A DNA stretch of 48,546 bases from the NCBI GenBank assembly GCA_023145965.1, contig JAGLDC010000005.1, positions 1-48,546 of the forward strand, in the 5' to 3' direction. The notes under the pieces were generated by a model that made no database searches, was not told the DNA's origin, and worked only from the letters and a program-made list of their open reading frames with translations. Shown here in pieces: positions 1,247-46,061 of this stretch; position 1 is the first letter of the stretch; each line of letters starts with the position of its first letter. The position numbers and the translations under genes were made by a program. This DNA is from a bacterium. GTDB lineage: Bacteria > UBP14 > UBA6098.

Positions 1247-1330
1247 ATGGGTGGTTTACATAATGATATTTGCGAAGCAATAAAACAACTGGACGAAAGG
1301 GATTTAGAACCGTGGAAAAACAGTTTTTAA
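1247..1330 (+). CDS. 27-residue ORF directly after the endonuclease
   Basis: An ATG one base after the endonuclease stop opens a 27-codon frame (MGGLHNDICEAIKQLDERD...), ending at the TAA of 1328-1330. Composition is protein-like (amphipathic helix with acidic and basic residues). It resembles the first helix of a longer protein cut short where the 21-bp repeats begin. It may be a truncated third member of the restriction operon or a chance frame. Confidence 0.3.
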   Translation: MGGLHNDICEAIKQLDERDLEPWKNSF

Positions 1331-1338
1331 GAGGCGAA

Positions 1339-1566
1339 ATGAGACAAAAAAGCCTTCGGAATGGCATTCTTCTTCTTGAAAATCGCATTCCGTCAGTTAA
1401 AAATGCCATTCGTCCGGTTCAAAACGACATTTCTGTTCTTTGGAACGGCATTCCGTTTCTTAAAAATCGTGTTCCGTCAGTTAAATATGTCATTCGCCGG
1501 ATTGGAAATCCCGTTTTTCACATAACAAATCAAATTCTGTCAAATAAAATTCCCATTAGGAGGTAG
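1339..1566 (+). CDS. small ORF made of heptad (7-codon) repeats
   Basis: The ATG at 1339 sits after a purine-rich stretch (aagaggcga). The 75-residue frame is almost wholly degenerate heptads of the form N-x-I-x-x-V-K, for example NRIPSVK, NAIRPVQ, NGIPFLK, NRVPSVK. It ends at the TAG inside the ribosome-binding site of the duplicated K-subunit start, so its end is fortuitous. The frame may be translated, or open only because the 21-bp unit lacks stops. Confidence 0.3.
   Translation: MRQKSLRNGILLLENRIPSVKNAIRPVQNDISVLWNGIPFLKNRVPSVKYVIRRIGNPVFHITNQILSNKIPIRR
1359..1530 (+). repeat. 21-bp degenerate tandem repeats, about 8 units (locus 1)
   Basis: Successive 21-bp units begin TTGAAAATCGCATT, TTAAAAATGCCATT, TTCAAAACGACATT, TTTGGAACGGCATT, TTAAAAATCGTGTT, TTAAATATGTCATT and ATTGGAAATCCCGT. 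The period stays exact over several units while bases drift, and units 84 bp apart are the most alike. There are no spacers, so this is not a CRISPR array. A related array is at 11359-11475. Both arrays follow a nuclease-like gene and precede a truncated copy of an ATPase gene start. Confidence 0.75.
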
Positions 1567-1678
1567 GATGACAAAAAAATTGACACTCGCGATAGCGATT
1601 ATCGCACTTTGCACTGTCGCAGCGGCGTTTGCGCAGGTTCCAGCGGCAACCGCCGCGCAATCGACGGCGTCGAGATAG
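1552..1678 (+). pseudogene. truncated duplicate of the atpK start (leader, RBS, first 23 codons)
   Basis: Positions 1552-1637 match 2064-2149 at 85 of 86 bases, covering the aggaggtagg ribosome-binding site, the ATG (1568) and the N-terminal hydrophobic segment of subunit K. The copy then diverges and ends after 36 residues at a TAG (1676-1678), in an Ala/Thr-rich tail. It cannot make a c-subunit. The near identity implies a recent duplication linked to insertion of the ORF that now lies between the copies. Confidence 0.88.
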
Positions 1679-1698
1679 TGGAGTGAACAGTAAAACTA

Positions 1699-2055
1699 AT
1701 GGATAAAACAACACATAAAATTGTTATTGGCGATTCCCGCGATATGGCCGGGATCGACGTAATAAGTTATATTAAAAACGAAAAAGTTTACGACAGATTT
1801 ACATTCGATTTCTTTCTTAAGACCTTGTTATCATTAGACTTTGATCACGAAGAAGCAAAGAATATTATCCTTAATAATTGCCTTCTCAGCACATTAGTTC
1901 TTCAAGAAAGGATTTATAATAATTATTATAAAAAAATATCGGAAAACGAAGAAATGTCTGAAGACCTAAAAGAAGAATTCCGTCGTATTAAGAAAATTCA
2001 GAATATTGAAGTTATCGATGAAATTCGCATTGAAATAAAAAGATTATCAAAATAA
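1699..2055 (+). CDS. 118-residue hypothetical protein with methyltransferase-like first residues
   Basis: This ORF lies between the truncated and intact starts of atpK. Its first residues (THKIVIGDSRDM) look like the opening strand of N4-cytosine methyltransferases of the HKIIIGDSR...TSPPY type, but no SPPY motif follows. The rest is helical and rich in Asn, Glu, Lys and Ile. The gene is AT-rich compared with atpK, which suggests a foreign source. A weak GGAG lies 15 nt before the ATG. Function is not recognised. It could be a truncated methyltransferase start fused to another sequence, or a genuine small accessory protein of the restriction system. Confidence 0.55.
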   Translation: MDKTTHKIVIGDSRDMAGIDVISYIKNEKVYDRFTFDFFLKTLLSLDFDHEEAKNIILNNCLLSTLVLQERIYNNYYKKISENEEMSEDLKEEFRRIKKIQNIEVIDEIRIEIKRLSK

Positions 2056-2079
2056 CAAATCGACCCATTAGGAGGTAGG

Positions 2080-2658
2080 ATGACAAAAAAATTGACACTC
2101 GCGATAGCGATTATCGCACTTTGCACTGTCGCGGCGGCGTTTGCGCAGGATGCTCCCGTCGAGGCCAAAGCCGGATGGTTCAATTGGGATGCCGGAACAC
2201 TCGCGCTCATCGGAGTCGGAATCGCGGTCGTGCTGGCAGGTTTCGGATCGGCTATCGGGATCGGGATCGCGGCGAATATGTCTATCGGCGCGATGCACGA
2301 GCATCCCGGATTGTTCCCGCAGTTCTTACTTCTGTCGGCGCTTCCGGGAACGCAGGGCATTTACGGATTCGTCGCGGGATTTTTAATTATCCTGTGGACC
2401 GGGCTTCTGAACGACCCATCCGCGCTGGCGGCGCTTACGCCGGTGCAGGGATGGCATTTCCTATTCGCGGGAGTGCCTGTCGGGTTGGCCGGATTGGTTT
2501 CGGGAATTCATCAGGGCAAGGTTTGTGCATCGGGCGTTGGGCTTGTCGTAAGAGATAAGGCGAATGTCGCCAAGGCTATGACGCTCGCGGCTTTCGTCGA
2601 GTTCTACGCCATCCTCGGTCTTCTGGCCAGCGTGTTAATTTTACTCTCCATCAAGTAA
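2080..2658 (+). CDS. atpK: V-type ATP synthase subunit K (proteolipid c-ring)
   Basis: A 192-residue membrane protein with a strong ribosome-binding site (aggaggtagg) 7-8 nt before the ATG. After an N-terminal signal-like segment (residues 5-23) come two helical hairpins. The first (about 40-110) has the Gly-rich IGVGIAVVLAGFGSAIGIGI and LPGTQGIYGF, with Gln where a carboxylate would be. The second (about 128-190) holds the ion-binding Glu174 in AFVEFYAILG. This one-carboxylate double hairpin is typical of V-type K subunits, which form the rotor ring carrying H+ or Na+. It opens the cluster K-E-C-F-A-B. The leader and first codons are duplicated upstream at 1552-1637. Confidence 0.95.
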   Translation: MTKKLTLAIAIIALCTVAAAFAQDAPVEAKAGWFNWDAGTLALIGVGIAVVLAGFGSAIGIGIAANMSIGAMHEHPGLFPQFLLLSALPGTQGIYGFVAGFLIILWTGLLNDPSALAALTPVQGWHFLFAGVPVGLAGLVSGIHQGKVCASGVGLVVRDKANVAKAMTLAAFVEFYAILGLLASVLILLSIK

Positions 2659-2659
2659 A

Positions 2660-3247
2660 ATGGGTATAAATGGAATCATAAATAAAATCTCCGCCGATGC
2701 CGACACTCAGATAGCCCAACTCGAGGCCGAAAACAAAAAGGCTATGCAAAAAATAAAGGAAGAAGCGCTTAAAAACGTCGCAGAGATCGAAAAATCGGCG
2801 CAAATTCGAGCAACGGAAGAACAACAACGCGCCTTCGATCAGACACTTTCGCGCGAAGAGGCAAAGCTACGAGTCGAATTCCTCCGAGTAAAACAAGAGC
2901 TAGTCGTAGAGACTTTCGCAAAGGCGCGCAATAGCCTTCTAGGATTACCAAATGAAGAGCTAAAAAAACGCTATTTAAATCACATCGTGTCTTTCGGCGA
3001 AAAAAACGGCAAGATAATCGTCGGCTCTGAAGATAAAGCTCTTCTGGATGAAGACTTCGTGAAATCTGCGGGGGATGCGGTGGGAGGTTCTTTCGACCGC
3101 GAGCTTAGCGATAGCTTCAAACACGGTTTTATGCTTATCGCCGGCAAAATCCAATATGACGCGCGTTTCGACGAGCTTTATAATGAGATAAGCGAGAGTA
3201 AAACAGACCAAATCGCCTCTATATTGTTCTCAGGGGAGGCTGAATGA
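2660..3247 (+). CDS. atpE: V-type ATP synthase subunit E (peripheral stalk)
   Basis: 195 residues starting 1 nt after the atpK stop. Residues about 10-75 form a long charged coiled coil (AQLEAENKKAMQKIKEEAL...), followed by a globular domain with KIIVGSEDK and GGSFDRELSDSFKHGFMLIAG, the pattern of subunit E C-terminal domains. The protein is part of the stator stalk tying the catalytic A3B3 head to the membrane sector. Its stop overlaps the start of subunit C by 4 bp (ATGA). Base composition is lower in GC than atpK, atpA and atpB. Confidence 0.9.
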   Translation: MGINGIINKISADADTQIAQLEAENKKAMQKIKEEALKNVAEIEKSAQIRATEEQQRAFDQTLSREEAKLRVEFLRVKQELVVETFAKARNSLLGLPNEELKKRYLNHIVSFGEKNGKIIVGSEDKALLDEDFVKSAGDAVGGSFDRELSDSFKHGFMLIAGKIQYDARFDELYNEISESKTDQIASILFSGEAE

Positions 3248-4257
3248 GCCTCAATGTGCCCTTAGTGGTCACTCCAGACTCGAGATACTCATATGCAACC
3301 GGCGTTGTTCGCGGTAAATGGGAAAAACGCCTCAAGCGTCCCGAATTCGCACGGCTTATCGAGGCTCAACCCGAGGAGCTAGGTAAAACAATTGCCGAAC
3401 TCGGTTTTCAGGGGGCTGAAACTGATATAGAATTAGCTCTTTCTGAAGAATGGTTCAAGACTATCGCCCTCGTCGAGTCCCTGATCGATGATGCAAAATT
3501 GGCTTCACTGGCTAGAATATATACCGATTTTACAAATTTGGCGATTGCAATCAAAGCTGAGGCATTCAATTTCGATTATAAGCCTTATCATCTCCCTGGA
3601 GGACTTCTATCCTCCGAAGAAATGGCCGAACTTGTCGCCGATGAACGTTTAGCTCAAAATCAAGCCGAAGAAGAGATTTTACTGGCTATAAAAGAGGCTC
3701 GAGATGTCTATGAAAAAACAGACCTTCAGCTTACAATCAACGCCGCAGTCGATTCTCATTTCGCTACGATATTTAAAAAACTCCTTTTTGGCTCTGCTAG
3801 AGAATTCCTCATCGAATTAGCGCGTCGCTGGTTAGATTGTAAAAATTTCTCTGCATACCTTCGTTTGAGAGCAGCTAATTTCGATATTGATCTATTCAAA
3901 CAGTTTTTCGTCGAAGGCGGGCATTTAATAAGAGAAGATTACATGCGATTCGAAGAGGGCGAAATCGATGCAATCCCATCGAGATTGGTGTTCTCAATAT
4001 ATGGCAAGCCCTTCGCCGATGCCGTAGCCGACTCTATTAAAAATGAAAATTTCTCCAAACTCTCGGCGTTTTTCAATAAGCTCCTCGAGGAATTTCTCAG
4101 GAACAGTATTTATGTGCCCTTCGGTGTAGAGGTTATTATCGCATATGCCTTCCTGAAACACAGTGAAATACGCGCCGTTAGAGCCATCGCACGCATGAAG
4201 TCAGCTAAACTCGGCAAAGACATCATCGCCGAAAGGATTCGCTATGGCGACATATAA
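3244..4257 (+). CDS. atpC: V-type ATP synthase subunit C (central rotor socket)
   Basis: 337 residues, all-helical, with the AtpC/V-ATPase d-subunit signature near the start (SRYSYATGVVRGKWEKRL, then PEFARLIEAQPEELGKTIAELGF). This funnel-shaped protein links the central stalk to the K ring. Its start overlaps atpE by 4 bp and its end overlaps atpF by 14 bp, so E, C and F are probably translated as a coupled block. Length is normal for the family. Confidence 0.9.
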   Translation: MSLNVPLVVTPDSRYSYATGVVRGKWEKRLKRPEFARLIEAQPEELGKTIAELGFQGAETDIELALSEEWFKTIALVESLIDDAKLASLARIYTDFTNLAIAIKAEAFNFDYKPYHLPGGLLSSEEMAELVADERLAQNQAEEEILLAIKEARDVYEKTDLQLTINAAVDSHFATIFKKLLFGSAREFLIELARRWLDCKNFSAYLRLRAANFDIDLFKQFFVEGGHLIREDYMRFEEGEIDAIPSRLVFSIYGKPFADAVADSIKNENFSKLSAFFNKLLEEFLRNSIYVPFGVEVIIAYAFLKHSEIRAVRAIARMKSAKLGKDIIAERIRYGDI

Positions 4258-4570
4258 AACTGCTATTATCGGCGATATCGCGACTACGCTTCCATTTAAA
4301 GCAATGGGCCTCGATACAATAATCGACGACGGTCAAGTCGATTTGACTGAGGCATTCAATAAACTTGTAAATACTAGAGAATACGGCGCAATATTCATCA
4401 CCGAGGAGTCCGCAGAGAAAATAACAGAGAGTATCGAAAAGGTGCGCTATGAACCACTGCCGTCTGTGATTCTTATCCCAACTGTGCGTGGCTCGCTAGG
4501 CAAAGGCAAAAACGCGGTGCGCGAAACTATGAAACGCGCCGCCGGAAGAGACATTATGGGAGATGGATGA
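4244..4570 (+). CDS. atpF: V-type ATP synthase subunit F (central stalk)
   Basis: 108 residues with the CheY-like fold of subunit F: KTAIIGDIATTLPFKAMGLDT at the N-terminus, then YGAIFITEESAEKI and LPSVILIPTV. It binds the central stalk and regulates hydrolysis. The last 54 bp of the coding region (4508-4561) recur at 5352-5405 with one mismatch, marking a duplication. The normal next gene is A, here displaced by about 3.5 kb of accessory DNA. Confidence 0.92.
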   Translation: MATYKTAIIGDIATTLPFKAMGLDTIIDDGQVDLTEAFNKLVNTREYGAIFITEESAEKITESIEKVRYEPLPSVILIPTVRGSLGKGKNAVRETMKRAAGRDIMGDG

Positions 4571-4665
4571 TGAACAAACTTTATTATGGCGATAAATATA
4601 AGATTGGATGTAAATAAATAATAATAAACAAGATTTCTAAATAAACATAAAGCAAGGAGAGCAAG

Positions 4666-4935
4666 ATGCCAAGAGGTGACGGAACAGGACCTGACGGTAA
4701 AGGGCCAGGCACGGGTCGCGGCACAGGTCGCGGAATGGGAAGAAACTTTTCCAGAAGCGCTCAAATGAAGGCGATCATCGACGAATCGAAATGCACCGGC
4801 TGCAAACTCTGTATCGAAGCTTGCCCATTTGGAGCGATTACAGTAAATAAAACCGCCCGCGTGGACGAAACGAAATGCAATGGCTGCGGTCGATGCGTTC
4901 CGGCTTGCCCCGTGACCGCTATCACAATGAGGTGA
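4666..4935 (+). CDS. two-cluster 4Fe-4S ferredoxin with Gly/Arg-rich N-terminus
   Basis: 89 residues. The first 25 or so are the Gly/Pro/Arg-rich MPRGDGTGPDGKGPGTG type leader found on small proteins beside NifX-like genes in anaerobes. The rest holds two 4Fe-4S motifs, CTGCKLCIEACPFGA and CNGCGRCVPACPVTA. A purine-rich aaggagagc precedes the ATG. The next gene, NifX-like, starts 9 nt after the stop, so the pair probably works in iron-sulfur or electron handling. A broken second copy is at 7466-7644. Its presence inside an ATPase operon is unusual and reflects insertion, not a role in ATP synthesis. Confidence 0.9.
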   Translation: MPRGDGTGPDGKGPGTGRGTGRGMGRNFSRSAQMKAIIDESKCTGCKLCIEACPFGAITVNKTARVDETKCNGCGRCVPACPVTAITMR

Positions 4936-4944
4936 TTGGAAAAT

Positions 4945-5376
4945 ATGAAGACATTAAGGATCGCGCTCGGCTCGAACGATAACGTGAATATCGTTCTGGA
5001 TCACATGGGAGAATCAAAAAACTTCCTTATATACGATCTTTTTGAGGATGGACGGTTCGAATTTGTCGAAAAGAGAGAGAATACATCCGGCGAATCGATT
5101 AAACACGGCGATAAGGAAAAAATGCAAAAGGCTATGATGATGTTCGCAGACTCCGATATCGTCATGGCAAGGGAACTCAGCCCAAATTATATTAGGATGA
5201 GGGACAACTCCAAATTCCAGCCTGTCTTGACCCATATGGACTCGATCGAGGGTTCTATGGCGGAGATGGGCGCGTCGTTCGATGAGATATGCGGCCTCGT
5301 CGAGCGGCGAAAGCGCGGCGAAAGGATGAAGATTATTCCCAAAATCGGGAAAAAAACGCGGTGCGCGAAACTATGA
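4945..5376 (+). CDS. NifX/NifB-type dinitrogenase cofactor-domain protein, copy 1 (altered C-terminus)
   Basis: 143 residues from the ATG at 4945, chosen over an upstream TTG because the paralog at 7672 starts at the matching residue and gaggtga lies about 10 nt upstream. It has the NifX/NafY-like fold start (LRIALGSNDNVNIVLDHMGE). Such stand-alone proteins bind metal clusters or their precursors and usually sit with small ferredoxins. It is closely similar to copy 2 except at the end. After IPKIGKK the last residues (TRCAKL) are translated out of frame from a duplicated piece of atpF, so the natural C-terminus was replaced at the duplication junction. Confidence 0.85.
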   Translation: MKTLRIALGSNDNVNIVLDHMGESKNFLIYDLFEDGRFEFVEKRENTSGESIKHGDKEKMQKAMMMFADSDIVMARELSPNYIRMRDNSKFQPVLTHMDSIEGSMAEMGASFDEICGLVERRKRGERMKIIPKIGKKTRCAKL

Positions 5377-5405
5377 AACGCGCCGCCGGAAGAAACATTA
5401 TGGGA
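5352..5405 (+). pseudogene. duplicate of the 3' end of atpF
   Basis: Matches 4508-4561 at 53 of 54 bases and encodes the atpF C-terminal residues KNAVRETMKRAAGR, then diverges. It starts in an A-tract shared by the end of the NifX gene (gggaaaaa) and by atpF (gcaaaaacg), which looks like the joint of a tandem duplication. The NifX copy 1 stop codon lies within it. Confidence 0.88.
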
Positions 5406-5472
5406 CCGGATTAAAATAGCGGCGATAAAAATTAACACCAAAATTGAAAAATATGCGCCATTAGGAAAAATA

Positions 5473-5588
5473 GGCTGGCGCGAGGGCCGGGCGACGGCGC
5501 GCGATTTGCCATCGCAAATCGCGTGACGGAGCGGTGGCCGGGGGCGGAGCCGTTGCGTCCAGAGGACGTAGCAACGGGCGTGACAGCC
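5473..5588 (+). repeat. 116-bp structured repeat, copy A
   Basis: A GC-rich 116-bp element closed by ggctg...cagcc. Inside are a hairpin (cgatttgc/gcaaatcg) and a second (gttgcgtcc/ggacgtagcaac). A second copy of the same length is at 7322-7437, in the same orientation. Together they bracket the secreted-protein and alkD genes. It looks like a non-autonomous mobile or REP-like element; an RNA role is not excluded. Confidence 0.8.
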
Positions 5589-5641
5589 GGTCGAGTGACC
5601 AATAAACGAAAAAGGATTTTTAAATTTTAAAAGGAGGAAGA

Positions 5642-6571
5642 ATGAAAAAGATGATGTTTGTTGCGATGGCGATAGTTTTCGCCGCCGGAGCACTATCCGC
5701 TTATGTGGCAGCGGATTATATGCCGCTCACAGTCGGAAATTATTGGGTTTATTCAGATTCGTCGGAGGTCGGTTTGGACTCATCGAGAACGGATATCGCC
5801 GGAACATCGATATGGGAAGGAACACCGTGTTTCATAATGGAGAATATCGATTACGAGTATTCCGAGATCGAAACATCTTTTGTCTACTTCGATTCCGGAA
5901 GCTTGTGGATAGTCCAGTATGATTCGGAAGAAGGCGATCATTTCTTGGTTCTCTTCCTTCCGGCGGTTTTCGACATCGGATCGACCTGGGATGTAATATA
6001 TATGGACACGAGCTGGACAGAAGATCCGTATGAATATTTTTACACTATTCATTCGTCCGCTGTCCTCGAAGCGGTCGAAAATGTGGTTACTCCGGCAGGT
6101 TTGTTCATGAACTGCCTGAAAATATCGCAAAGTGGGTATTTCAGAATGACCGTTCTAATGGACGGAACACCGATTTATTCGGATTCTTCGGACCTCGATA
6201 TCAACTATATCTGGATTGGCGAGGATGCCGGTGTAGTCAAAGATTATACTTTCGACACCGAAGACAGCACCGAGTCTGTATCGCTATTGATACGGTCGAA
6301 CCTCACCGGTATCGACGAAGCAATTTTGCCATCGGTAAATGCGATAGCCGCGTTCCCAAATCCGTTCAATGCTGCGGTGACTATCGATGTCCCCGAAAAC
6401 ACCGAGGAAATCGAAGTTTACGACGCTATGGGAAAACTCGTCGATACCGTTCCCGTCGATTTCGGACAAGCAAGATGGAATCCATCGAGAGAGACCGCTG
6501 CGGGTATGTATTTAGTCAAGGCTAAGTCCGGCGGTCGTTTTGTTTCTAAGAAAATCGTATTTCTAAAATAG
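5642..6571 (+). CDS. secreted protein with T9SS C-terminal sorting domain
   Basis: 309 residues after a strong aaaggagga site. Residues 1-24 are a signal peptide (KKMMFVAMAIVFAAGALSA). The middle is beta-rich with no named domain (YMPLTVGNYWVYSDS... suggests a lipoprotein-like beta barrel or sandwich). From about residue 235 there is a typical T9SS/FlgD-like tail: FPNPFNAAVTIDV, IEVYDAMGKLV, AAGMYLVKA, ending KKIVFLK. The product is probably exported and attached to or released from the cell surface. It has nothing evident to do with the ATPase genes around it and lies between the 116-bp repeats, so it is likely cargo. Confidence 0.85.
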   Translation: MKKMMFVAMAIVFAAGALSAYVAADYMPLTVGNYWVYSDSSEVGLDSSRTDIAGTSIWEGTPCFIMENIDYEYSEIETSFVYFDSGSLWIVQYDSEEGDHFLVLFLPAVFDIGSTWDVIYMDTSWTEDPYEYFYTIHSSAVLEAVENVVTPAGLFMNCLKISQSGYFRMTVLMDGTPIYSDSSDLDINYIWIGEDAGVVKDYTFDTEDSTESVSLLIRSNLTGIDEAILPSVNAIAAFPNPFNAAVTIDVPENTEEIEVYDAMGKLVDTVPVDFGQARWNPSRETAAGMYLVKAKSGGRFVSKKIVFLK

Positions 6572-6599
6572 GCGTTGGACGCGATCCGATGAAAAATTT

Positions 6600-7319
6600 A
6601 TGGCCGATTTCAATAAAATCGCCGATGAAATAAAGGCCGAACTCGAAGCCATAGCCGAGCCGGAATACCGCGAACGCCTTAAAGGCTTTTTCCGCGAGGA
6701 AATTAATCCTATCGGCGTGCGAGCGAAGTTCATTCACGAGGTGGCGGCGCGGCAATGGCTAAATATCAAGGCCGAGCCAAAAGACCGAATTTTCGAGCTT
6801 TGCGAGGTTCTTTTAAAATATCGAATAGCCGAAATGACTTCCGTGGCACTCGATTTAGCGTGGAAAATCCGCCGAAAATATGAGCCGGACGATTTCGAAT
6901 TATTCCAGCGGTGGCTCGACGAATATGTCGATAATTGGGGCGCGTGTGACAATATCTGTTGTCGAAATATTGGATATATGATATTCGAAAACCGCGAGCT
7001 TATCGGAGCGCTATATAATTGGACGCGCTCCAAAAACCGTTGGCGCAAAAGAGCCTCCGCCGTTTCGTTGATATATTCCAACAAGCGCGGCGAAAATATC
7101 GACGAGGCATTCGAGATCGCAAATATTCTCATGGACGACGAAGACGACCTCGTGCGAAAAGGCTATGGATGGATGCTCAAGGTCGTCGGCGAAAAACGCC
7201 CGAAGCGCGTGTTCGATTTCGTCACGGCAAGTGTCGCGAGGATGCCGCGTGTCGCGTTCAGATACGCTATCGAAAAATTACCGCCTGAAATGAAAAAAAG
7301 GGCGATGAAAATAAAATAA
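6600..7319 (+). CDS. AlkD-like DNA alkylation repair glycosylase
   Basis: 239 residues built of HEAT-like helical pairs. Hallmarks are EINPIGVRAKFIHEVA near residue 35, WLDEYVDNWGACDNIC (the Trp/Asp pair that lines the AlkD active cleft), RWRKRASAVSLIY, and DLVRKGYGWMLKVVGEKRP. AlkD-type enzymes excise N3- and N7-alkylpurines from DNA. Length is normal. The ribosome-binding site is weak. It lies between the secreted-protein gene and repeat copy B, with only 2 nt between its stop and the repeat. Confidence 0.88.
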   Translation: MADFNKIADEIKAELEAIAEPEYRERLKGFFREEINPIGVRAKFIHEVAARQWLNIKAEPKDRIFELCEVLLKYRIAEMTSVALDLAWKIRRKYEPDDFELFQRWLDEYVDNWGACDNICCRNIGYMIFENRELIGALYNWTRSKNRWRKRASAVSLIYSNKRGENIDEAFEIANILMDDEDDLVRKGYGWMLKVVGEKRPKRVFDFVTASVARMPRVAFRYAIEKLPPEMKKRAMKIK

Positions 7320-7321
7320 AC

Positions 7322-7437
7322 GGCTGGCGCGAGGGCCGGGCGACGGCGCGAGATTTGCACATTCGCAAATCGAGTGACGGAGTGGATGGGGCGGGGAACC
7401 GTTGTCTCCGAAGGACGTAGCAACGGGCGTGACAGCC
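7322..7437 (+). repeat. 116-bp structured repeat, copy B
   Basis: Same length and orientation as the element at 5473-5588, with the same closing stem (ggctg/cagcc) and the same first 29 bases. Differences cluster in the loop and middle region, while the last 24 or so bases (gacgtagcaacgggcgtgac...) are again identical. The two copies bracket 1.7 kb of cargo. Confidence 0.8.
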
Positions 7438-7465
7438 AAAAACGACTGAAATTAAAAATTTAAGT

Positions 7466-7644
7466 AAATGGAACGGGACCGAACGGTAAAGGACCCGCCA
7501 GTAACCGTGGAATGTGTATGAGAAAATCGCCTCACTGGGGAGGCTGCAAGGCGCACCGTGAAGACGATCCATCGACCGACAAAGGGAAGCGGCTGTGGCA
7601 GATGTGTTCCCGCTTGCCTCGTGAACGCTATTGCAATGGGGTAA
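7466..7644 (+). pseudogene. degenerate copy of the ferredoxin gene
   Basis: The start region encodes NGTGPNGKGP, matching the Gly/Pro leader of the ferredoxin at 4666. From about 7586, in another frame, it encodes GSGCGRCVPACLVNAIAMG and a stop, matching the second cluster motif and C-terminus. Most of the first cluster region is lost and the frame is broken. It lies directly before NifX copy 2, as the intact ferredoxin does before copy 1, so the whole ferredoxin-NifX cassette was duplicated and this copy decayed. Confidence 0.82.
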
Positions 7645-7671
7645 AAAAATAAAAGATTGAAAAGGGGAAAT

Positions 7672-8091
7672 ATGGAAAAATTAAGGGTCGCGCTCGGCTC
7701 GGACGATGGAGTCAACATCATCCTGAATCACATGGGGGAATCGAAGAGCTTCCTTATATACGACCTTTTCGAAGATGGGCGATTCGAATTTGTCGAAAAG
7801 AGGGAGAACCTGTCCGGCAAATCAAAGAGCCACGCCGACAAGATCAAGATGCAAAAGGCCATTGAGATATTTGGGGACTCCGATGTTATCATGGCGAGAA
7901 AGCTCAGTCCAAACTATATAAAAATGAGAGACAATTCCAAATTCCAACCGGTCTTGACTAACATAGACTCAATCGAAGGTTCCATGTTGGAGATGGGTGC
8001 GTCGTTCGCCGAAATAGCCGGCCTCGTCGAGCAAAGAAGGCGTGGCGAGAGGATGAAGACGATACCAACAATTGGGGAAAAAGCATCATAA
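7672..8091 (+). CDS. NifX/NifB-type dinitrogenase cofactor-domain protein, copy 2
   Basis: 139 residues from ATG 7672 after an aaggggaaa site. It is a close paralog of the protein at 4945: LRVALGSDDGVNIILNHMGE, FLIYDLFEDGRFEFVEKREN, MARKLSPNYIKMRDNSKFQP. It keeps what is likely the original C-terminus (IPTIGEKAS). The fold is expected to bind iron-sulfur or Mo-Fe cofactor precursors. Its ferredoxin partner upstream is broken, so it may rely on the intact ferredoxin at 4666. It lies 15 nt before atpA. Confidence 0.87.
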   Translation: MEKLRVALGSDDGVNIILNHMGESKSFLIYDLFEDGRFEFVEKRENLSGKSKSHADKIKMQKAIEIFGDSDVIMARKLSPNYIKMRDNSKFQPVLTNIDSIEGSMLEMGASFAEIAGLVEQRRRGERMKTIPTIGEKAS

Positions 8092-8106
8092 TTACAAGGA
8101 GCATTT

Positions 8107-9873
8107 ATGTCTGAAGAGAAAATCGGGCGCGTCGTAAAAGTCTCCGGCCCGCTCGTAGTCGCCGAAAATATGACCGGCGCAAAGATGTACGATGTCGTGC
8201 GCGTGTCCGAACAAGGGCTTATCGGTGAAATTATCGAGCTAAAAGGCGACCTTGCCTCTATTCAGGTTTATGAGGAAACCAGTGGCATGGGCCCCGGCGA
8301 GCCGGTTCACCTTACAGGCTCACCCCTTTCCGTCGAGCTTGGCCCCGGACTTCTGACATCGATTTACGACGGAATCCAACGCCCGCTCGACGATATCGTC
8401 GAGATGGCCGGCGATTTCATCCCTCGCGGAGTTGTCACAGACAAGCTTCCACGAAATATTAAATGGGATTTCAAACCGACCGTGAAGCCCGGCGATAAGC
8501 TCATCGCGGGCGATATTATCGGCACGGTGCAGGAAACATCGATCATCGAACATAAGATCATGCTTCCGCCCGGGATTTCCGGCGAGGTCGTTTCTATCGA
8601 ATCCGGTGAATTCAATATCGAAGAGGATATTTGCGTCGTTCGTGGCGACGACGGCATCGAGCAGAAAATAAAGATGTTCCACCGCTGGCCCGTTCGTCAT
8701 TCGAGGCCATTCAAAAAAAAGCATCTACCGAGGATGCCGCTGACGACCGGACAGCGCGTAATCGATACATTCTTCCCTGTCGGAAAGGGCGGGACGGCAT
8801 GCGTTCCCGGACCGTTCGGCAGCGGAAAAACCGTGATTCAGCACCAGTTGGCCAAGTGGGCCGATGCGGATATCATCGTCTATGTCGGCTGCGGCGAGCG
8901 TGGCAACGAAATGACCGATGTCCTCAATGAATTCCCAGAACTCAAAGACCCGAAAACGGGCGAACCGCTCATGAAACGCACCGTTCTCATCGCGAACACA
9001 TCGAACATGCCGGTCGCAGCGCGCGAGGCCTCGGTCTATACCGGGATTACCATCGCCGAATATTTCCGCGATATGGGCTATTCAGTTGCGGTAATGGCAG
9101 ACTCGACAAGCCGATGGGCTGAGGCAATGCGTGAGATTTCCGGGCGGCTCGAGGAGATGCCCGGCGACGAAGGCTATCCGGCATATTTGGCGCGGCGAAT
9201 CGCGGAGTTTTACGAGCGATCCGGCTGGGTCGATACACTCGGCTCCGATGAGCGCGTCGGAGCGCTTACTGTTGTCGGCGCGGTGTCGCCTCCGGGCGGC
9301 GATTTGGCCGACCCGGTTGTGCAGGCGACGCTCCGCGTTGTCCGCGTGTTCTGGAGCCTCGAAGCCGAATTGGCATATCAGCGCCATTACCCGGCGATTT
9401 CATGGCTGAATAGCTACTCGCTTTATGGCGATGTTTTCGACGAGTATTATCGCGAGAATGTTTCCCCGGAATTCCCCGATAACCGTATCAAGGCTATGGC
9501 GATACTCCAAACTGAAGCCGACCTTCAGGAAATAGTTAAACTCGTGGGCGCGGAGGCCCTCGACCCACCTGACCGCCTCACGCTCGACTCCGCACAGTCC
9601 ATACGCGAGGATTTCTTGCAACAACACGCCTTCCACAAAGTGGACACCTTCTGTTCCATCGAAAAACAGAACCTTATGCTAACGGCGATTCTTCTTTTTG
9701 AGACCGAGGCTCGCAAAGCGCTGGATGCCGGCGCGGATTTCAAGGCTATCGACGAGCATCATATCCGCGAGGAGATTGCGCGGATGAAGCGAATTCCGGA
9801 GTCGGAGGCGATTGCGCGCATCGAATCGATAATCGAGCGCATCCCGAAAGAGCTTGGCGAATTGGCGAAATAA
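8107..9873 (+). CDS. atpA: V-type ATP synthase catalytic subunit A
   Basis: 588 residues with an acaaggagc ribosome-binding site. It has the N-terminal barrel ([16 protein letters not shown]), the A-specific insertion (about 115-190), Walker A GPFGSGKT at 235-242, [13 protein letters not shown], and the catalytic region [25 protein letters not shown] split over the nucleotide pocket. Length is standard for V/A-ATPase A subunits. It is the nucleotide-hydrolysing or -forming subunit of the A3B3 head. Its GC content is visibly higher than that of atpE and atpC. Confidence 0.97.
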
Positions 9874-9889
9874 AGAAAGGGATAAACCC

Positions 9890-11338
9890 ATGGGCGACAT
9901 GATCTTATTGGATGGAGTGAAATATTGCAGATACGAGCCGAAAACCGAGGCCGAGTTCGAGCATCTTGTGGTGGAGAACGCCGCGCAGATTTTCGGTGAG
10001 GACGCGATATATTTGGATATAAAGAAGCTCATCAAGACCGAGTGGGGCAAGGGAACGATACCGGACGGCTATCTTTTCTACCCGGAGGAGAAGCGTTTCG
10101 TTTTAGTCGAGGTGGAATTATCGAGCCACGACGTCCACTCGCATGTGAGCAGGCAGCTTGCGACATTTATTGGCTCATTTGAAAATCACAGGTCGCGGAA
10201 TAAGCTCGCAAAGCTCGTGCAAAGGCATATCGAAGAAAATCCGCAACTGCGCGAACGGCTCGGCAAAGCGGCGAAGGGCAAAGGGCTTTTCGATTTCCTT
10301 TATAACGAGGTGTTCGAGGCGCTTGCCGAGGGCGGCGGTTTCGAGACAATTGTCGTAATAGAGCGCGAAACGCCGCAAATACTCGGCGCGATGAAATTGC
10401 TGATGCCGCATCCGAAGGTTCTCGAGGTTGCCATTTACGCCCGCGAGGGCGCGGAGGAGGAATTTGCGCTAAGATTCGAACCGCAGTATGACTTCGTGAC
10501 TCAACCTATAATGAAAACGGTAAAACCAGCTCAAAAAAAACCAGACAAAGAAGAAACTCCGGTTCCGGTTAGTATTAAGGAGAGTATCGTTAAGATTAAA
10601 GGAGACTTGGAATTTCCAATAGAGATTTCCATGACCTATAAGCGCGTTGCCTATAAAGCCTTGCTATATAGCCACGATTTATTCAGATATAATGACTTAG
10701 CCTTTTCGAGCTTGACGGGATTATCCAAGTATATATCCGACGGCAAAAAAGCGGTTGCTTGGACTGCCTGGGATTGCAACTATAAAAATGCCGTTGTTAA
10801 AATCTCGGAAATAAAGGACGAAATCTGGGAACAAGGCTTCTATAAATCTATACAGGCTAACGTTAGAAGTTTAACGCGGCGAATAATAGAGGACCTAAAA
10901 GAATTAGAGAGGCAGAATCTTCTAAGATATGATACTGGAAGTAATTACAATTATTTTTATGCTCCTTATGGCGACGATGAGTTCACAGTTTTCCGTCTCG
11001 AATTAGTTTCGGATATGCCTAAAAATTACGAGGAAGAAGAATATGAAAATAACTCTGTGAGCGAATTTGACTGTGGCCCATGGAGCGATGATTTGATTGC
11101 CGTAAATCAACAAACTCATATCTCTATGGATGAGTGGGGATTCTTAATTAATCGTTATATAAAAGAATTCTACCTCCCCATAAAAGATAGACTTATAAGT
11201 TCAGGACTTTTCAGCTTACTTGAGGAGGATGATAATTCTATAGAATGGTATATAACACCCGATAACGATTTTTTCGATGTGGAGACATTTATACAAATCA
11301 TTGCAGACTTACTTAAAGAGATAAAAGATAAACAGTAA
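9890..11338 (+). CDS. PD-(D/E)xK nuclease-like protein with unknown C-terminal half
   Basis: 482 residues from ATG 9890, supported by aaagaaaggga upstream; longer starts would run into atpA. The N-terminal domain (1-200) has EFEHLVVENAAQIFG (Glu29), IPDGYLF (Asp59) and VLVEVELSSHD (Glu74-x-Glu76), a nuclease-like core of the NucS/DUF91-like kind, and SHVSRQLATFIGSF. A Lys/Pro-rich linker (about 205-222) joins a second half with no recognised domain, rich in aromatic and acidic residues. The DNA for the first half is GC-rich like atpA, the second half AT-rich, so the gene looks chimeric. It separates atpA from atpB. Possibly a restriction or repair nuclease. Confidence 0.65.
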   Translation: MGDMILLDGVKYCRYEPKTEAEFEHLVVENAAQIFGEDAIYLDIKKLIKTEWGKGTIPDGYLFYPEEKRFVLVEVELSSHDVHSHVSRQLATFIGSFENHRSRNKLAKLVQRHIEENPQLRERLGKAAKGKGLFDFLYNEVFEALAEGGGFETIVVIERETPQILGAMKLLMPHPKVLEVAIYAREGAEEEFALRFEPQYDFVTQPIMKTVKPAQKKPDKEETPVPVSIKESIVKIKGDLEFPIEISMTYKRVAYKALLYSHDLFRYNDLAFSSLTGLSKYISDGKKAVAWTAWDCNYKNAVVKISEIKDEIWEQGFYKSIQANVRSLTRRIIEDLKELERQNLLRYDTGSNYNYFYAPYGDDEFTVFRLELVSDMPKNYEEEEYENNSVSEFDCGPWSDDLIAVNQQTHISMDEWGFLINRYIKEFYLPIKDRLISSGLFSLLEEDDNSIEWYITPDNDFFDVETFIQIIADLLKEIKDKQ

Positions 11339-11342
11339 TCCT

Positions 11343-11453
11343 ATGAGAAACTCGGGGAATTATCTTAAAGATGACGACGTAGGTCTTGAAAACGTTCAGT
11401 TATGTCTTGGAAATGAGGTTATATCTTTTGAAAACGTCGATGTAGGTCTTTAA
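11343..11453 (+). CDS. 36-residue heptad-repeat ORF
   Basis: An ATG just after the nuclease gene opens 36 codons of degenerate heptads: KDDDVGL, ENVQLCL, GNEVISF, ENVDVGL. The unit is again 7 codons, as at 1339-1566. No clear ribosome-binding site is seen. It may be open only because of the repeat. Confidence 0.25.
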   Translation: MRNSGNYLKDDDVGLENVQLCLGNEVISFENVDVGL

Positions 11454-11475
11454 AACGCAAAAGGAGTCTTGGGAA
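11359..11475 (+). repeat. 21-bp degenerate tandem repeats, about 5 units (locus 2)
   Basis: Units begin TTAAAGATGACGACG, TTGAAAACGTTCAG, TTGGAAATGAGGTT, TTGAAAACGTCGATG and TTTAAAACGCAAAAG, each about 21 bp with a GTC-like end. The unit start TTNAAAAYG is shared with locus 1 (1359-1530). The array follows a nuclease-like gene and precedes a truncated atpB start. Confidence 0.7.
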
Positions 11476-11542
11476 AGCCTGAGCGACAACGACTTAAGCA
11501 AAAACATATTTTTTTGAACAAAATTATCGCAAGTTGCAAAAC

Positions 11543-11715
11543 TGAATTTATAAAATAATAATCATACGGAGGAAACAATGTTAAAAGAATATAGAACAAT
11601 TACGGAAGTCGCGGGGCCGCTGCTCGTGGTCGAAATAAATAGAAACACCGCCCCGAAATCGGGACGGCGTCGGGCTAACGATACTATCGTTAGGGCTGTT
11701 ACAGTAACATTATAA
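11543..11715 (+). pseudogene. truncated duplicate of the atpB start
   Basis: Positions 11543-11633 align without gaps with 12255-12345 (leader, cggaggaaa ribosome-binding site, ATG and about the first 18 codons) at roughly 86% identity. The frame from ATG 11578 then leaves the atpB sequence and stops at 11713-11715 after 45 residues. The tail carries the palindromes ctaacgatactatcgttag and gctgttacagtaac. More diverged than the atpK duplicate, hence probably older. Confidence 0.88.
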
Positions 11716-11729
11716 ATCAAATCGGCGAA

Positions 11730-12254
11730 ATGTCAAGATCTTCGATAAATAGAAAGCAAATTCGTCTCAAAGATTACGATTATTCGTCACCGGGAGCTTA
11801 TTTTGTGACCATTTGTTCTGAGAATAGAAAACCCGTTTTCATTAAGTTTCCTGTTTTAAAGCAAATCGCTGATAAAAACTGGAAGAAAATTCCAGAACGT
11901 TATGAAATGGCGGAGATAGACGAATATATAATAATGCCAGATCATATTCACGGAATAATATTTATCCTACCAGCCGTAGGGGCGGGTCTTGCGCCCGCCC
12001 ATGGAAACGACAATGTTCCGTGTTCGGAAAAACGGGCCGGCGCAAGACCGGCCCCTACGATCGGTAACATTGTTGGATCATTTAAATCATTATGTTTAAA
12101 AGATTGGTTGGAATATATCGAGAATAATAATATGGAAATAAGGGCAAAATTCTGGCAACGTGGATTTTATGACCATGTCATCCGAAACGAAAAAGACCTT
12201 TCTAAGGTTCGCGGATACATACAGAACAACCCAGAAATGGTTGCCGAATTTTGA
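11730..12254 (+). CDS. REP-associated tyrosine transposase (RAYT, IS200-like Y1 family)
   Basis: 174 residues with the RAYT pattern: KDYDYSSPGAYFVTICSENR at the start, EYIIMPDHIHGIIFI containing the HUH motif (His-Ile-His), WQRGFYDHVIRNE and the catalytic-Tyr region VRGYIQNNPEM. These enzymes are thought to move REP palindromes as single strands, recognising a GTAG-type tetranucleotide beside a hairpin. Between the HUH and GFYDH regions, about 28 residues (VGAGLAPAHG...RAGARPAPT) are encoded by a REP pair inserted in frame. The gene sits between the truncated and intact atpB starts. Whether the enzyme is active is not known. Confidence 0.92.
   Translation: MSRSSINRKQIRLKDYDYSSPGAYFVTICSENRKPVFIKFPVLKQIADKNWKKIPERYEMAEIDEYIIMPDHIHGIIFILPAVGAGLAPAHGNDNVPCSEKRAGARPAPTIGNIVGSFKSLCLKDWLEYIENNNMEIRAKFWQRGFYDHVIRNEKDLSKVRGYIQNNPEMVAEF
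11976..12058 (+). repeat. REPIN (two inverted GTAG-type REPs) inside the RAYT coding sequence
   Basis: GTAG at 11976 is followed by hairpin GGGCGGG-tcttgcg-CCCGCCC. A second, inverted hairpin GGGCCGG-cgcaaga-CCGGCCC ends in CTAC at 12058. The 83-bp unit keeps the transposase frame open. Related GTAG hairpins are dense at 45.2-46.8 kb. Confidence 0.88.
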
Positions 12255-12289
12255 TGAATTTATAAAACGAAAATCAACCGGAGGAAAGC

Positions 12290-13657
12290 ATGCTAAAAGA
12301 ATACAGAACAATTACCGAGGTCGCGGGGCCGCTGCTGGTTGTCGAGGGGATCGAGGGCGCGACATTCGAGGAGCTGGTCGAGATCACGCTTCCCGACGGC
12401 GAAAAGCGGCGCGGTAAGGTGCTCGAGGTCAACCGCGACAAGGCGATAATCCAACTTTTCGAGGGCACCACAGGCGTCGATGTCTATGGCTCGCGCGTGA
12501 GATTTCTTGGGCGCGGGATCGAGCTGGGCGTTTCCGAAGACATGCTCGGACGCATTTTCGATGGCCTCGGGCGGCCTATCGACGACGGCCCGGAGATTTT
12601 ACCCGAAAAGCGCCTCGACATCAATGGCGCGCCGATAAACCCATACGCGCGCGAGTTCCCCGATGAGTTTATCCAGACGGGCGTGTCGGCCATCGATGGC
12701 TTGAATACTCTGGTTCGCGGGCAGAAATTGCCGATATTCTCGGCCTCGGGATTACCACACAATATGCTCGCGGCTCAGATCGCGCGGCAGGCAAAGGTGC
12801 TCGGCACTGAGGAGAAATTCGGTGTGGTGTTCGGCGCGATGGGAATCACCTTCGAGGAGGCGGAATTTTTCCGTCGGGAGTTCGAGCGCACTGGCGCCTT
12901 GGAGCGCGCGGTGCTGTATTTAAATCTGGCGAACGACCCGGCAATCGAGCGAATCTCGACGCCGCGAATCGCGTTGACGACTGCGGAATACCTTGCGTTC
13001 GAGAAGGGGATGCACATCCTCGTGATCATCACAGATATGACGAATTATTGTGAGGCTCTCAGGGAGGTTTCAGCATCGCGCAAGGAGATTCCCGGCCGGC
13101 GTGGCTTCCCCGGCTATCTATACACCGACCTTGCCACACTTTATGAACGCGCCGGCAGAATCAAGGGCCGCGACGGCTCGATCACGCTGATCCCCGTTCT
13201 CACGATGCCCGAAGACGACAAGACACACCCAATTCCCGACCTTACGGGCTATATCACGGAGGGCCAAATATACCTATCGCGCTCGCTCCTTAAAAAGGGC
13301 ATTACACCGCCAATAGATGCACTCCCAAGCCTCTCACGTCTTCGCCAGAAAGGCGTCGGCCCCGGCAAAACCCGTGAAGACCACGATGATCTTTTCAATC
13401 AATTGTATGCGGCTTATGCTCGAGGCAAACAGTCGCAGGAACTTGCTGTGATTCTTGGCGAGGCAGCTCTTTCTGACCTCGATAAAATATATCTCGAATT
13501 CGCCTCGAATTTCGAGGAGCGATATATCGGGCAAGGATACAATAGCAACCGCACAATAGAGGAAACTCTCGATCTTTCATGGGAGCTTTTATCTAAATTC
13601 CCACGCAGAGAACTGAAGAAAATCGATGAAAAATTAATAGAAAAATACTTGAAATAG
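12290..13657 (+). CDS. atpB: V-type ATP synthase subunit B
   Basis: 455 residues with an accggaggaaag ribosome-binding site. Shows the barrel ([20 protein letters not shown]), the non-catalytic nucleotide-site region [15 protein letters not shown] in place of a Walker A, and [27 protein letters not shown], then [20 protein letters not shown] at the end. It alternates with A in the head. No subunit D gene follows, although D usually does; the operon stops here at a GC-rich hairpin. GC-rich like atpA. Confidence 0.97.
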
Positions 13658-15606: not shown

Positions 15607-16557
15607 TTGGAAAATAAAATTCTCATCACAGGCGGAGCGGGTTTTATCGGCTCGAATTTCGTTAAATTATTGCTTAAAAATAGCGATTACGACGAAATCC
15701 TTATCTTAGATAAACTTACATATGCCGGAAATCTCGACAATCTCCAAGGTGCGCTGAACAACGAGCGCGTCCGCTTTTTTAAAGGGGACATCGCCGATCC
15801 CGACGATGTCGAACGAGCACTCGAAAACTGTCGCCATGTGATCAATTTCGCCGCAGAAACACATGTCGATAGATCGTTGGCGGAATCGAATCCCTTTATA
15901 AGATCGAACATTTTAGGTGTTCACACACTTATGGAAAAAGCACGCGATTTTCCACTGGAAAAATTCATCCACATAAGCACCGATGAGGTTTATGGCCCTA
16001 TCATGGAGGGCTCAGCTCATGAAAATTCACCCCTCAACCCCTCATCGCCATATTCAGCGAGTAAGGTTGCAGGGGATGCCCTATGCAACGCTTATCGCGT
16101 TACATGGAATGTCCCTACTATAACAATCAGGCCGACAAACAACTATGGACCGAACCAATTCCCGGAAAAACTCATTCCCTTCTTCGTAAAAAGGGCTTTA
16201 AATGGACAGACACTTCCTATTTACGGCGAGGGCGACCAGCTTCGTGATTGGCTCTTTGTCGAGGATAGCTGTAGAGCAATCAAACTGGTGCTCGACCACG
16301 GTGAGATAGGCGAAATCTACAACATCGGCGCCGATTGCCACAAAAAAAATATCGAGATCGCGCACACATTGCTCCAAATCCTGGCTCTTCCAGATGACAG
16401 GATCGAGCATGTCGATGATCGCCTCGGTCACGATTTCCGTTATGCTGTTGACTCGACAAAAATAAGAAACCTCGGCTGGAAATCAGAGATAGGTTTTGAG
16501 GAAGGCTTCGAAAAGACAGTCAAGTTCTTCCGGGATAAATTCGGAGGTGAAGTTTGA
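15607..16557 (+). CDS. rfbB: dTDP-glucose 4,6-dehydratase
   Basis: 316 residues. A TTG at 15607 is taken as start because the NAD-binding strand (KILITGGAGFIGSN) begins at residue 4 and aagga lies about 10 nt upstream; longer frames would overlap the epimerase gene. Short-chain dehydrogenase features: GGAGFIG, STDEVYG with the catalytic Thr/Asp/Glu, and PYSASKVAGD with Tyr and Lys. It converts dTDP-glucose to dTDP-4-keto-6-deoxyglucose, the entry to deoxysugars. Partner genes rfbA and rfbD are not in the window. Confidence 0.92.
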   Translation: MENKILITGGAGFIGSNFVKLLLKNSDYDEILILDKLTYAGNLDNLQGALNNERVRFFKGDIADPDDVERALENCRHVINFAAETHVDRSLAESNPFIRSNILGVHTLMEKARDFPLEKFIHISTDEVYGPIMEGSAHENSPLNPSSPYSASKVAGDALCNAYRVTWNVPTITIRPTNNYGPNQFPEKLIPFFVKRALNGQTLPIYGEGDQLRDWLFVEDSCRAIKLVLDHGEIGEIYNIGADCHKKNIEIAHTLLQILALPDDRIEHVDDRLGHDFRYAVDSTKIRNLGWKSEIGFEEGFEKTVKFFRDKFGGEV

Positions 16558-45172: not shown

Positions 45173-45373
45173 GTAGGGGAGCACCCCTGTGTGCTCCCGC
45201 TCGTCACGCCAACGCCATTCGGTTTTACCGCGCCGGGAGGGCACGGGGACCCGCCCGTCGGAATTTCGGTAGGACGGACATTCTTGTCTGTCCCCGAACA
45301 GGCAGGAATGCCTGTTCTACCGACAATCATTGTTTTCAAATCCGTCGCGGGCGGGTTTCAAACCTGCCCCTAC
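45173..45373. repeat. cluster of GTAG-type REP palindromes
   Basis: Hairpins next to GTAG (or CTAC on the other strand): GTAG at 45173 with GGGAGCAC/GCTCCC, 45269-45320 with a facing pair (GTAGGACGGACA ... TGCCTGTTCTAC, a REPIN), and one ending CTAC at 45373. Positions 45234-45343 recur identically at 45952-46061. Confidence 0.85.
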
Positions 45374-45899: not shown

Positions 45900-46061
45900 A
45901 GACGCATATATGCGTCCCCTACAGCGCAATCATCGTTTTCAATCTTCCGCACGGGAGGGCACGGGGACCCGCCCGTCGGAATTTCGGTAGGACGGACATT
46001 CTTGTCTGTCCCCGAACAGGCAGGAATGCCTGTTCTACCGACAATCATTGTTTTCAAATCC
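45900..46061. repeat. REP palindromes, including second copy of a 110-bp repeat
   Basis: gacgcatatatgcgtcccctac (45900-45921) is a REP hairpin with CTAC end. 45952-46061 is identical to 45234-45343. The two copies lie either side of hicBA in the same orientation. Confidence 0.9.

Follow-up and report, generated by a model that had tools for sequence, protein, structure and literature searches.

Cargo entry in described systems and in a V-type ATPase operon

In fungal mitochondria, mobile endonuclease genes bring a piece of the host gene with them, and the host gene stays whole. Insertion with long target duplication reportedly goes back to Nobusato et al. (2000). It is described for restriction-modification (R-M) genes in Helicobacter, as cited in PMC3031569 and PMC1643837. 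Homology-facilitated illegitimate recombination has been proposed for the stacked immunity arrays of the type VI secretion system (T6SS) in Vibrio (PMC5361080), and transformation of Streptococcus pneumoniae generates merodiploid tandem duplications in which essential genes are retained (PMC3784515). Here, we analyzed a stretch of 48,546 nucleotides (contig JAGLDC010000005.1 of assembly GCA_023145965.1; referred to as the window) in which the V-type ATPase (V-ATPase) operon of an uncultured bacterium holds restriction, toxin-antitoxin and other genes at several of its junctions. As contig C5, the window belongs to a 2.5-Mb genome (G000), which was assembled in 139 contigs with a contamination estimate of 0.04. 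Starts or ends of the ATPase genes are duplicated around the cargo, and every addition left one intact ATPase gene. We see an even chance that recombination with DNA of relatives added genes at junctions of an ancestrally compact operon and left the duplicated gene ends as scars; the route of recombination and a role of DNA uptake in it are what we infer.

The locus shares with the long target duplications R-M genes in the cargo, long and variable direct target repeats on both sides and the way in which it was found, the comparison of related genomes. Scars as such are known from R-M genes; what differs here is that four junctions of one housekeeping operon are affected, that the cargo is mixed (R-M, MntA-HepT, Fer4-NifX and a Y1 transposase) and that one allele is apparently of foreign type. 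Moreover, the copies are gene starts or ends, and one junction runs head to tail. Like the Vibrio arrays, the operon has stacked cargo with leftover gene pieces, and it would also have one conserved anchor with an illegitimate joint opposite and alleles from different strains. In those arrays, the cargo consists of effector-immunity genes at a single cluster, whereas here it separates essential genes of an operon and leaves the host gene whole. The merodiploids of S. pneumoniae resemble it in the head-to-tail duplication, through which an essential region persists as one intact and one altered copy, but they span about 100 to 900 kb and use existing repeats, whereas the units here measure a few kilobases at most and are heavily reduced. 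In contrast to the mitochondrial endonuclease genes, no homing endonuclease was recognized at this locus. In the literature, no precedent was found for gene-end scars stacked over four junctions of one such operon.

Duplicated gene ends at four junctions

The preliminary description had reported direct repeats of the atpK start, the atpF end and the atpB start, and all three were recovered with the same coordinates and identities: positions 1552-1637 versus 2064-2149 (85/86, 98.8%), 4508-4561 versus 5352-5405 (53/54, 98.1%) and 11543-11633 versus 12255-12345 (78/91, 85.7%), respectively. The ribosome-binding site and the first codons are indeed kept in both atpK copies and in both atpB copies. 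Chance was rejected as a source, with no direct repeats of at least 30 bp (E ≤ 1e-6) in 30 Markov-1 resamples of 13.7 kb. A genome-wide tendency to form repeats was rejected as well: a 344-kb sample of this genome, made up of twenty other stretches, holds 2 comparable pairs, compared with 3 in the 13.7-kb operon region. The density in the operon is thus about 40 times that of the sample (Poisson P of about 8e-5; 2e-3 if the background rate is set at its upper bound). The background of the relative G002 was 22 repeat pairs in 362 kb, the majority of which lie within one intergenic repeat cluster.

One of the two background pairs in G000 (contig C17; L222, 942-1041 and 2491-2590), a direct repeat of 100 bp with 92% identity and a distance of about 1.5 kb, brackets what seems to be one minus-strand gene for a membrane protein and is possibly another such event. 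Elsewhere in the window, a direct repeat of 110 bp with 100% identity (45234-45343 and 45952-46061, 718 bp apart) brackets hicA/hicB-like frames on the minus strand beside a MazF-like frame; it consists of intergenic repeat sequence and contains no gene end.

If the copies were an assembly artefact or reflected a mixture of strains in the metagenome, the fragmented assembly, the overlap of just 25 bp between contigs C21 and C5 and the ability of a strain mixture to join alleles would account for them. This is highly improbable, however, since similar scars are present in G007 and G017, the contamination estimate is low, the frame of a methylase continues across the C21/C5 join and the left junction at atpB recurs to the base in the assembly of a second species, G003, which makes an artefact at atpB unlikely.

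The gene for the V-ATPase subunit AtpI is absent from the window and was found on C21, 1.4 kb from the contig end. C21 ends in the 25 bases with which the window begins, a sequence that each contig contains once, and the join yields a complete methylase of 418 amino acids. C21 contributes a fourth affected junction, in which atpI is followed by a MntA-HepT pair and then by a copy of the atpI end. In the joined sequence, the next genes are those of the DNA methylase (3' part at 1-589, 5' part on C21; PF01555 above the cutoff on the C21 part and below it on the window part) and of its partner, a type II restriction enzyme (586-1245; PADLOC REase_II, E = 9e-41), which like all features of the operon described below are on the plus strand. 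A degenerate array of 21-bp repeats (1354-1508; family D2 of the repeat search) then precedes the first atpK-start copy (1552-1637), which has its ATG at 1568, comprises 23 codons of atpK and opens a frame of 36 codons. Behind it lie an atpI-end copy (1653-1694), the open reading frame ORF118 (1699-2055) and the second atpK-start copy, which runs into the intact atpK (2064-2658, coding sequence 2080-2658; PF00137). ORF118 had no match in Pfam or PADLOC; its start resembles that of a methylase between atpI and atpK in G002, and it is probably the remainder of a second R-M pair. Because a further atpI end stands right behind the partial atpK, the atpK junction is a join of atpK start to atpI end, that is, two units of atpI end, cargo and atpK start arranged head to tail, and no plain insertion.

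Degenerate 21-bp arrays are found at V-ATPase junctions of the window (1354-1508 and 11365-11457), G003 and G004; in the relatives, they lie at 1050-1330 and 6550-6720 of L035 and at 10530-10690 of L088 (reverse complement). A 42-bp repeat of G002 resembles the terminal part of such an array.

At the atpF-atpA junction, the left copy belongs to the intact gene and the right one is a remnant. The atpF gene (4244-4570) contains the 54-bp end copy at 4508-4561, and its tail past 4561 is insert sequence. The right copy (5352-5405) continues in the alignment into a G002-like tail (IMGP..) and flank. The arrangement is thus left flank, copy, insert, copy and right flank. The cargo (4666-5376) consists of a ferredoxin-like Fer4 gene (4666-4935; PF00037) and a NifX-like gene (4936-5376; PF02579). 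The stretch between atpF and atpA (8107-9873) holds the Fer4-NifX module two times, with a related module before atpA at about 7470-8091 (repeats D1 and D10). The doubled regions are 4666-5588 and 7273-8091, of which the second has a seemingly broken Fer4 gene, and a GC-rich intergenic repeat (81%) is doubled as well (5427-5588 and 7273-7437).

This doubling speaks for a simple tandem duplication of junctions in the operon, after which one unit would have lost genes or had them replaced, and the join of atpK start to atpI end has the form of a tandem duplication, too. By that route, the copies would need no foreign DNA. Nevertheless, we consider it unlikely, since the NifX copies are only about 76% identical, compared with 98% for the atpF-end copies, the cargo of the units is unrelated and the atpI end looks foreign.

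At the atpA-atpB junction, an older cargo gene, orf482 (9890-11338), has related genes in G002, G003 and G004 and no match in Pfam or PADLOC. It is followed by the atpB-start copy (11543-11633), which comprises the leader, the ribosome-binding site, the ATG at 11578 and 18 codons. This copy is fused in frame to a two-hairpin leader (11634-11715) otherwise found only in G002 and G003, giving a mini-ORF of 45 codons. The cargo proper is a RAYT-like gene for a Y1 (IS200-like) transposase (11730-12254; PF01797, E = 6e-7, above the cutoff), and the second atpB-start copy runs from there into the intact atpB (12255-13657, coding sequence 12290-13657). The left junction, GTCGA/AATAAATAGAAACACC, is common to the window and G003 to the base, and the same two-hairpin leader is present in both, with different cargo (the Y1 transposase gene versus a NYN gene). 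The exact left junction and the leader argue that the atpB scar is common to the window and G003 by descent or exchange and is no independent event. Therefore, the three independent events of the preliminary description find no support in that form: at least four junctions are affected, the atpB scar was inherited or exchanged and the atpK case is a head-to-tail join.

The two-hairpin leader lies before the Y1 transposase gene in the window and before NYN genes in G002 and G003 (L034, about 15690-15770, and L032, about 3820-3910), and its 19-base palindrome, CTAACGATACTATCGTTAG, is identical in the three genomes. A mobile hairpin leader was rejected, with a single copy in each of 3 of 290 genomes and none in viral contigs, as was a known structured RNA, with no Rfam family at gathering score in the window.

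The partial gene starts might have been retained because selection acts on them as leader mini-ORFs driving cargo translation. Indeed, the frame opened by the atpB copy is as long in the window as in G003 and stops a short distance ahead of the cargo, a frame is likewise opened by the atpK copy, and the coding differences are synonymous. However, the changes in the tail of the atpB frame between G003 and the window mostly alter amino acids, and the copied ends of atpF, atpI and atpA are left unexplained. Such selection would also be a reason for keeping copies and not a route to making them, and we regard it as a very doubtful explanation.

Compact operons, variable cargo and further scars in relatives

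The operon comparison proposed in the preliminary description uncovered junctions without cargo in G003 and compact operons at class level. Compact, cargo-free operons are present in the class-level relatives G005, G006, G008 and G009 as well as in G030 and G045. Insert-free sites with a single target are the atpF-atpA and atpI-atpK junctions of G003 and the atpB start of G004, in relatives that are distant at the genus level. Within the family of the window, the cargo at one junction varies among close genomes: between atpI and atpK, there are R-M genes in G002, a DUF3800 gene in G001 and nothing in G003, and between atpF and atpA, there are Por and a partial AlkD in G002 and nothing in G003. 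The atpA-atpB junction holds various sets of an AbiEii-like pair, orf482-like genes, HicBA, HEPN, NYN and DUF3800.

Further events of this kind were also found in relatives. The atpB start is copied in G003 (79 bp, 100%) around the NYN gene, the atpF start in G017 (113 bp, 92%) around a gene that, judged by eye, is ZIP-transporter-like, and the atpA end in G007 (74 bp, 86%) around a pyridoxamine-oxidase-like gene. Among the 113 V-ATPase loci scanned, these were the only three genomes with gene-end copies; none of the 80 loci from a GTDB search, mostly of Clostridia, had one. The same search yielded no close named relative of the window genome (best match AtpB, 77%, bacterium AUK196). In G001 (L033), a single contig carries atpA and atpB in opposite orientations, and a 61-bp copy of a methylase start flanks another NYN gene between them. 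In the family f4 relatives G007, G010, G011, G014, G015 and G016, atpA and atpB are on separate contigs, so either the operon is split or the atpA-atpB junction was not assembled.

The left atpB copy of the window is preceded by a leader like that before the single atpB of G004. In G003, that leader leads straight into hicB at its start codon (alignment score of 49; shuffle maximum of 18), which indicates that cargo entered there at the atpB start. With this entry as the model, the starts and ends of V-ATPase genes could be landing pads of a dedicated, lineage-specific cassette loading by a putative enzyme, in which cargo would enter at the ribosome-binding site or start codon and the copied start would restore the gene. 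The recurrent loading of cargo suggested at the outset stands insofar as genes were added repeatedly at several junctions of an ancestrally compact operon, but no dedicated loading element was found, and we consider the landing pads quite improbable.

Origin of the copies

Of 34 positions in the atpI end at 1654, 2 deviate from the G001 allele, 7 from the local atpI and 9 from the G002 allele. It is nearest to G001 although G002 is the closer relative of the window genome by AtpA and AtpB, and it looks like an allele of foreign type. Of the coding differences between copies, 11 of 12 are synonymous (atpB, 6/6; atpK, 1/1; core of the G017 atpF copy, 4/4; atpF end, 0/1), an excess (P = 1e-5 to 2e-4) over the 29 to 39% expected for unselected change. 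Because of this pattern, both copies seem to have evolved as working genes, and the import of an allele would fit better than decay of a superfluous one. At least one copy looks foreign, and the coding differences are for the most part synonymous, so the copies are not necessarily duplicates of target sites.

A true long target duplication would arise if an enzyme made a staggered cut of 30 to 110 bp and inserted the cargo, the target being duplicated by fill-in. The order of flank, copy, insert, copy and flank at atpF and atpB, the identity of the G003 copies across 79 bp and the exact left junction common to the window and G003 are consistent with such an event, as are the variable copy lengths, which PMC3031569 and PMC1643837 report for R-M genes in Helicobacter. 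On the other hand, the cargo genes are unrelated and lack a common recombinase, the atpI end is apparently foreign, the atpB differences are synonymous only and the head-to-tail junction at atpK would be unexpected. We hold this explanation to be possible but rather unlikely. A transposon with a short target-site duplication was rejected, the copies being variable in length (about 31 to 113 bp) and the cargo unrelated.

In the additive recombination that we favor, DNA of a related strain with cargo beside a conserved ATPase gene would pair with the resident gene by one-sided homologous recombination. The other side would join illegitimately in or near the end of the resident gene, and that end would remain as a fragment. 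At the atpI-atpK junction, the outcome would be the two head-to-tail units described above. Only products that keep one intact ATPase gene would survive, which would be the reason why each scar is either the start of a downstream gene or the end of an upstream one. Additive recombination would explain the variable copy lengths, the unrelated cargo and the foreign-type end. The layout at atpF, at atpB and in G003 would fit one-sided homology with a putative donor molecule, and ComEC and DprA, which are encoded in the genome, are compatible with DNA uptake.

Several points weigh against additive recombination. ComEC and DprA are common and no proof of competence. The foreign-allele call for atpI is based on 34 bases, and the synonymous excess is based on 12 differences pooled over four copies, with the pooling chosen after the data had been seen; a translated mini-ORF under selection could also be its source. 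Identity is almost complete between the atpK copies and complete between the atpB copies of G003, as plain target duplication predicts. Mosaic breakpoints in atpA, atpB, atpK, atpF and atpC were not resolvable, the relatives compared being too distant to show one.

The finding bears on how defense and toxin-antitoxin genes enter chromosomes without integrases. One conserved operon preserves a readable record of several entries, and its scars can give the order and the source of each. If the foreign-allele reading is true, "long target duplication" would be accounted for by additive recombination with DNA of relatives and not by transposition, and housekeeping operons would be carriers of cargo between species.

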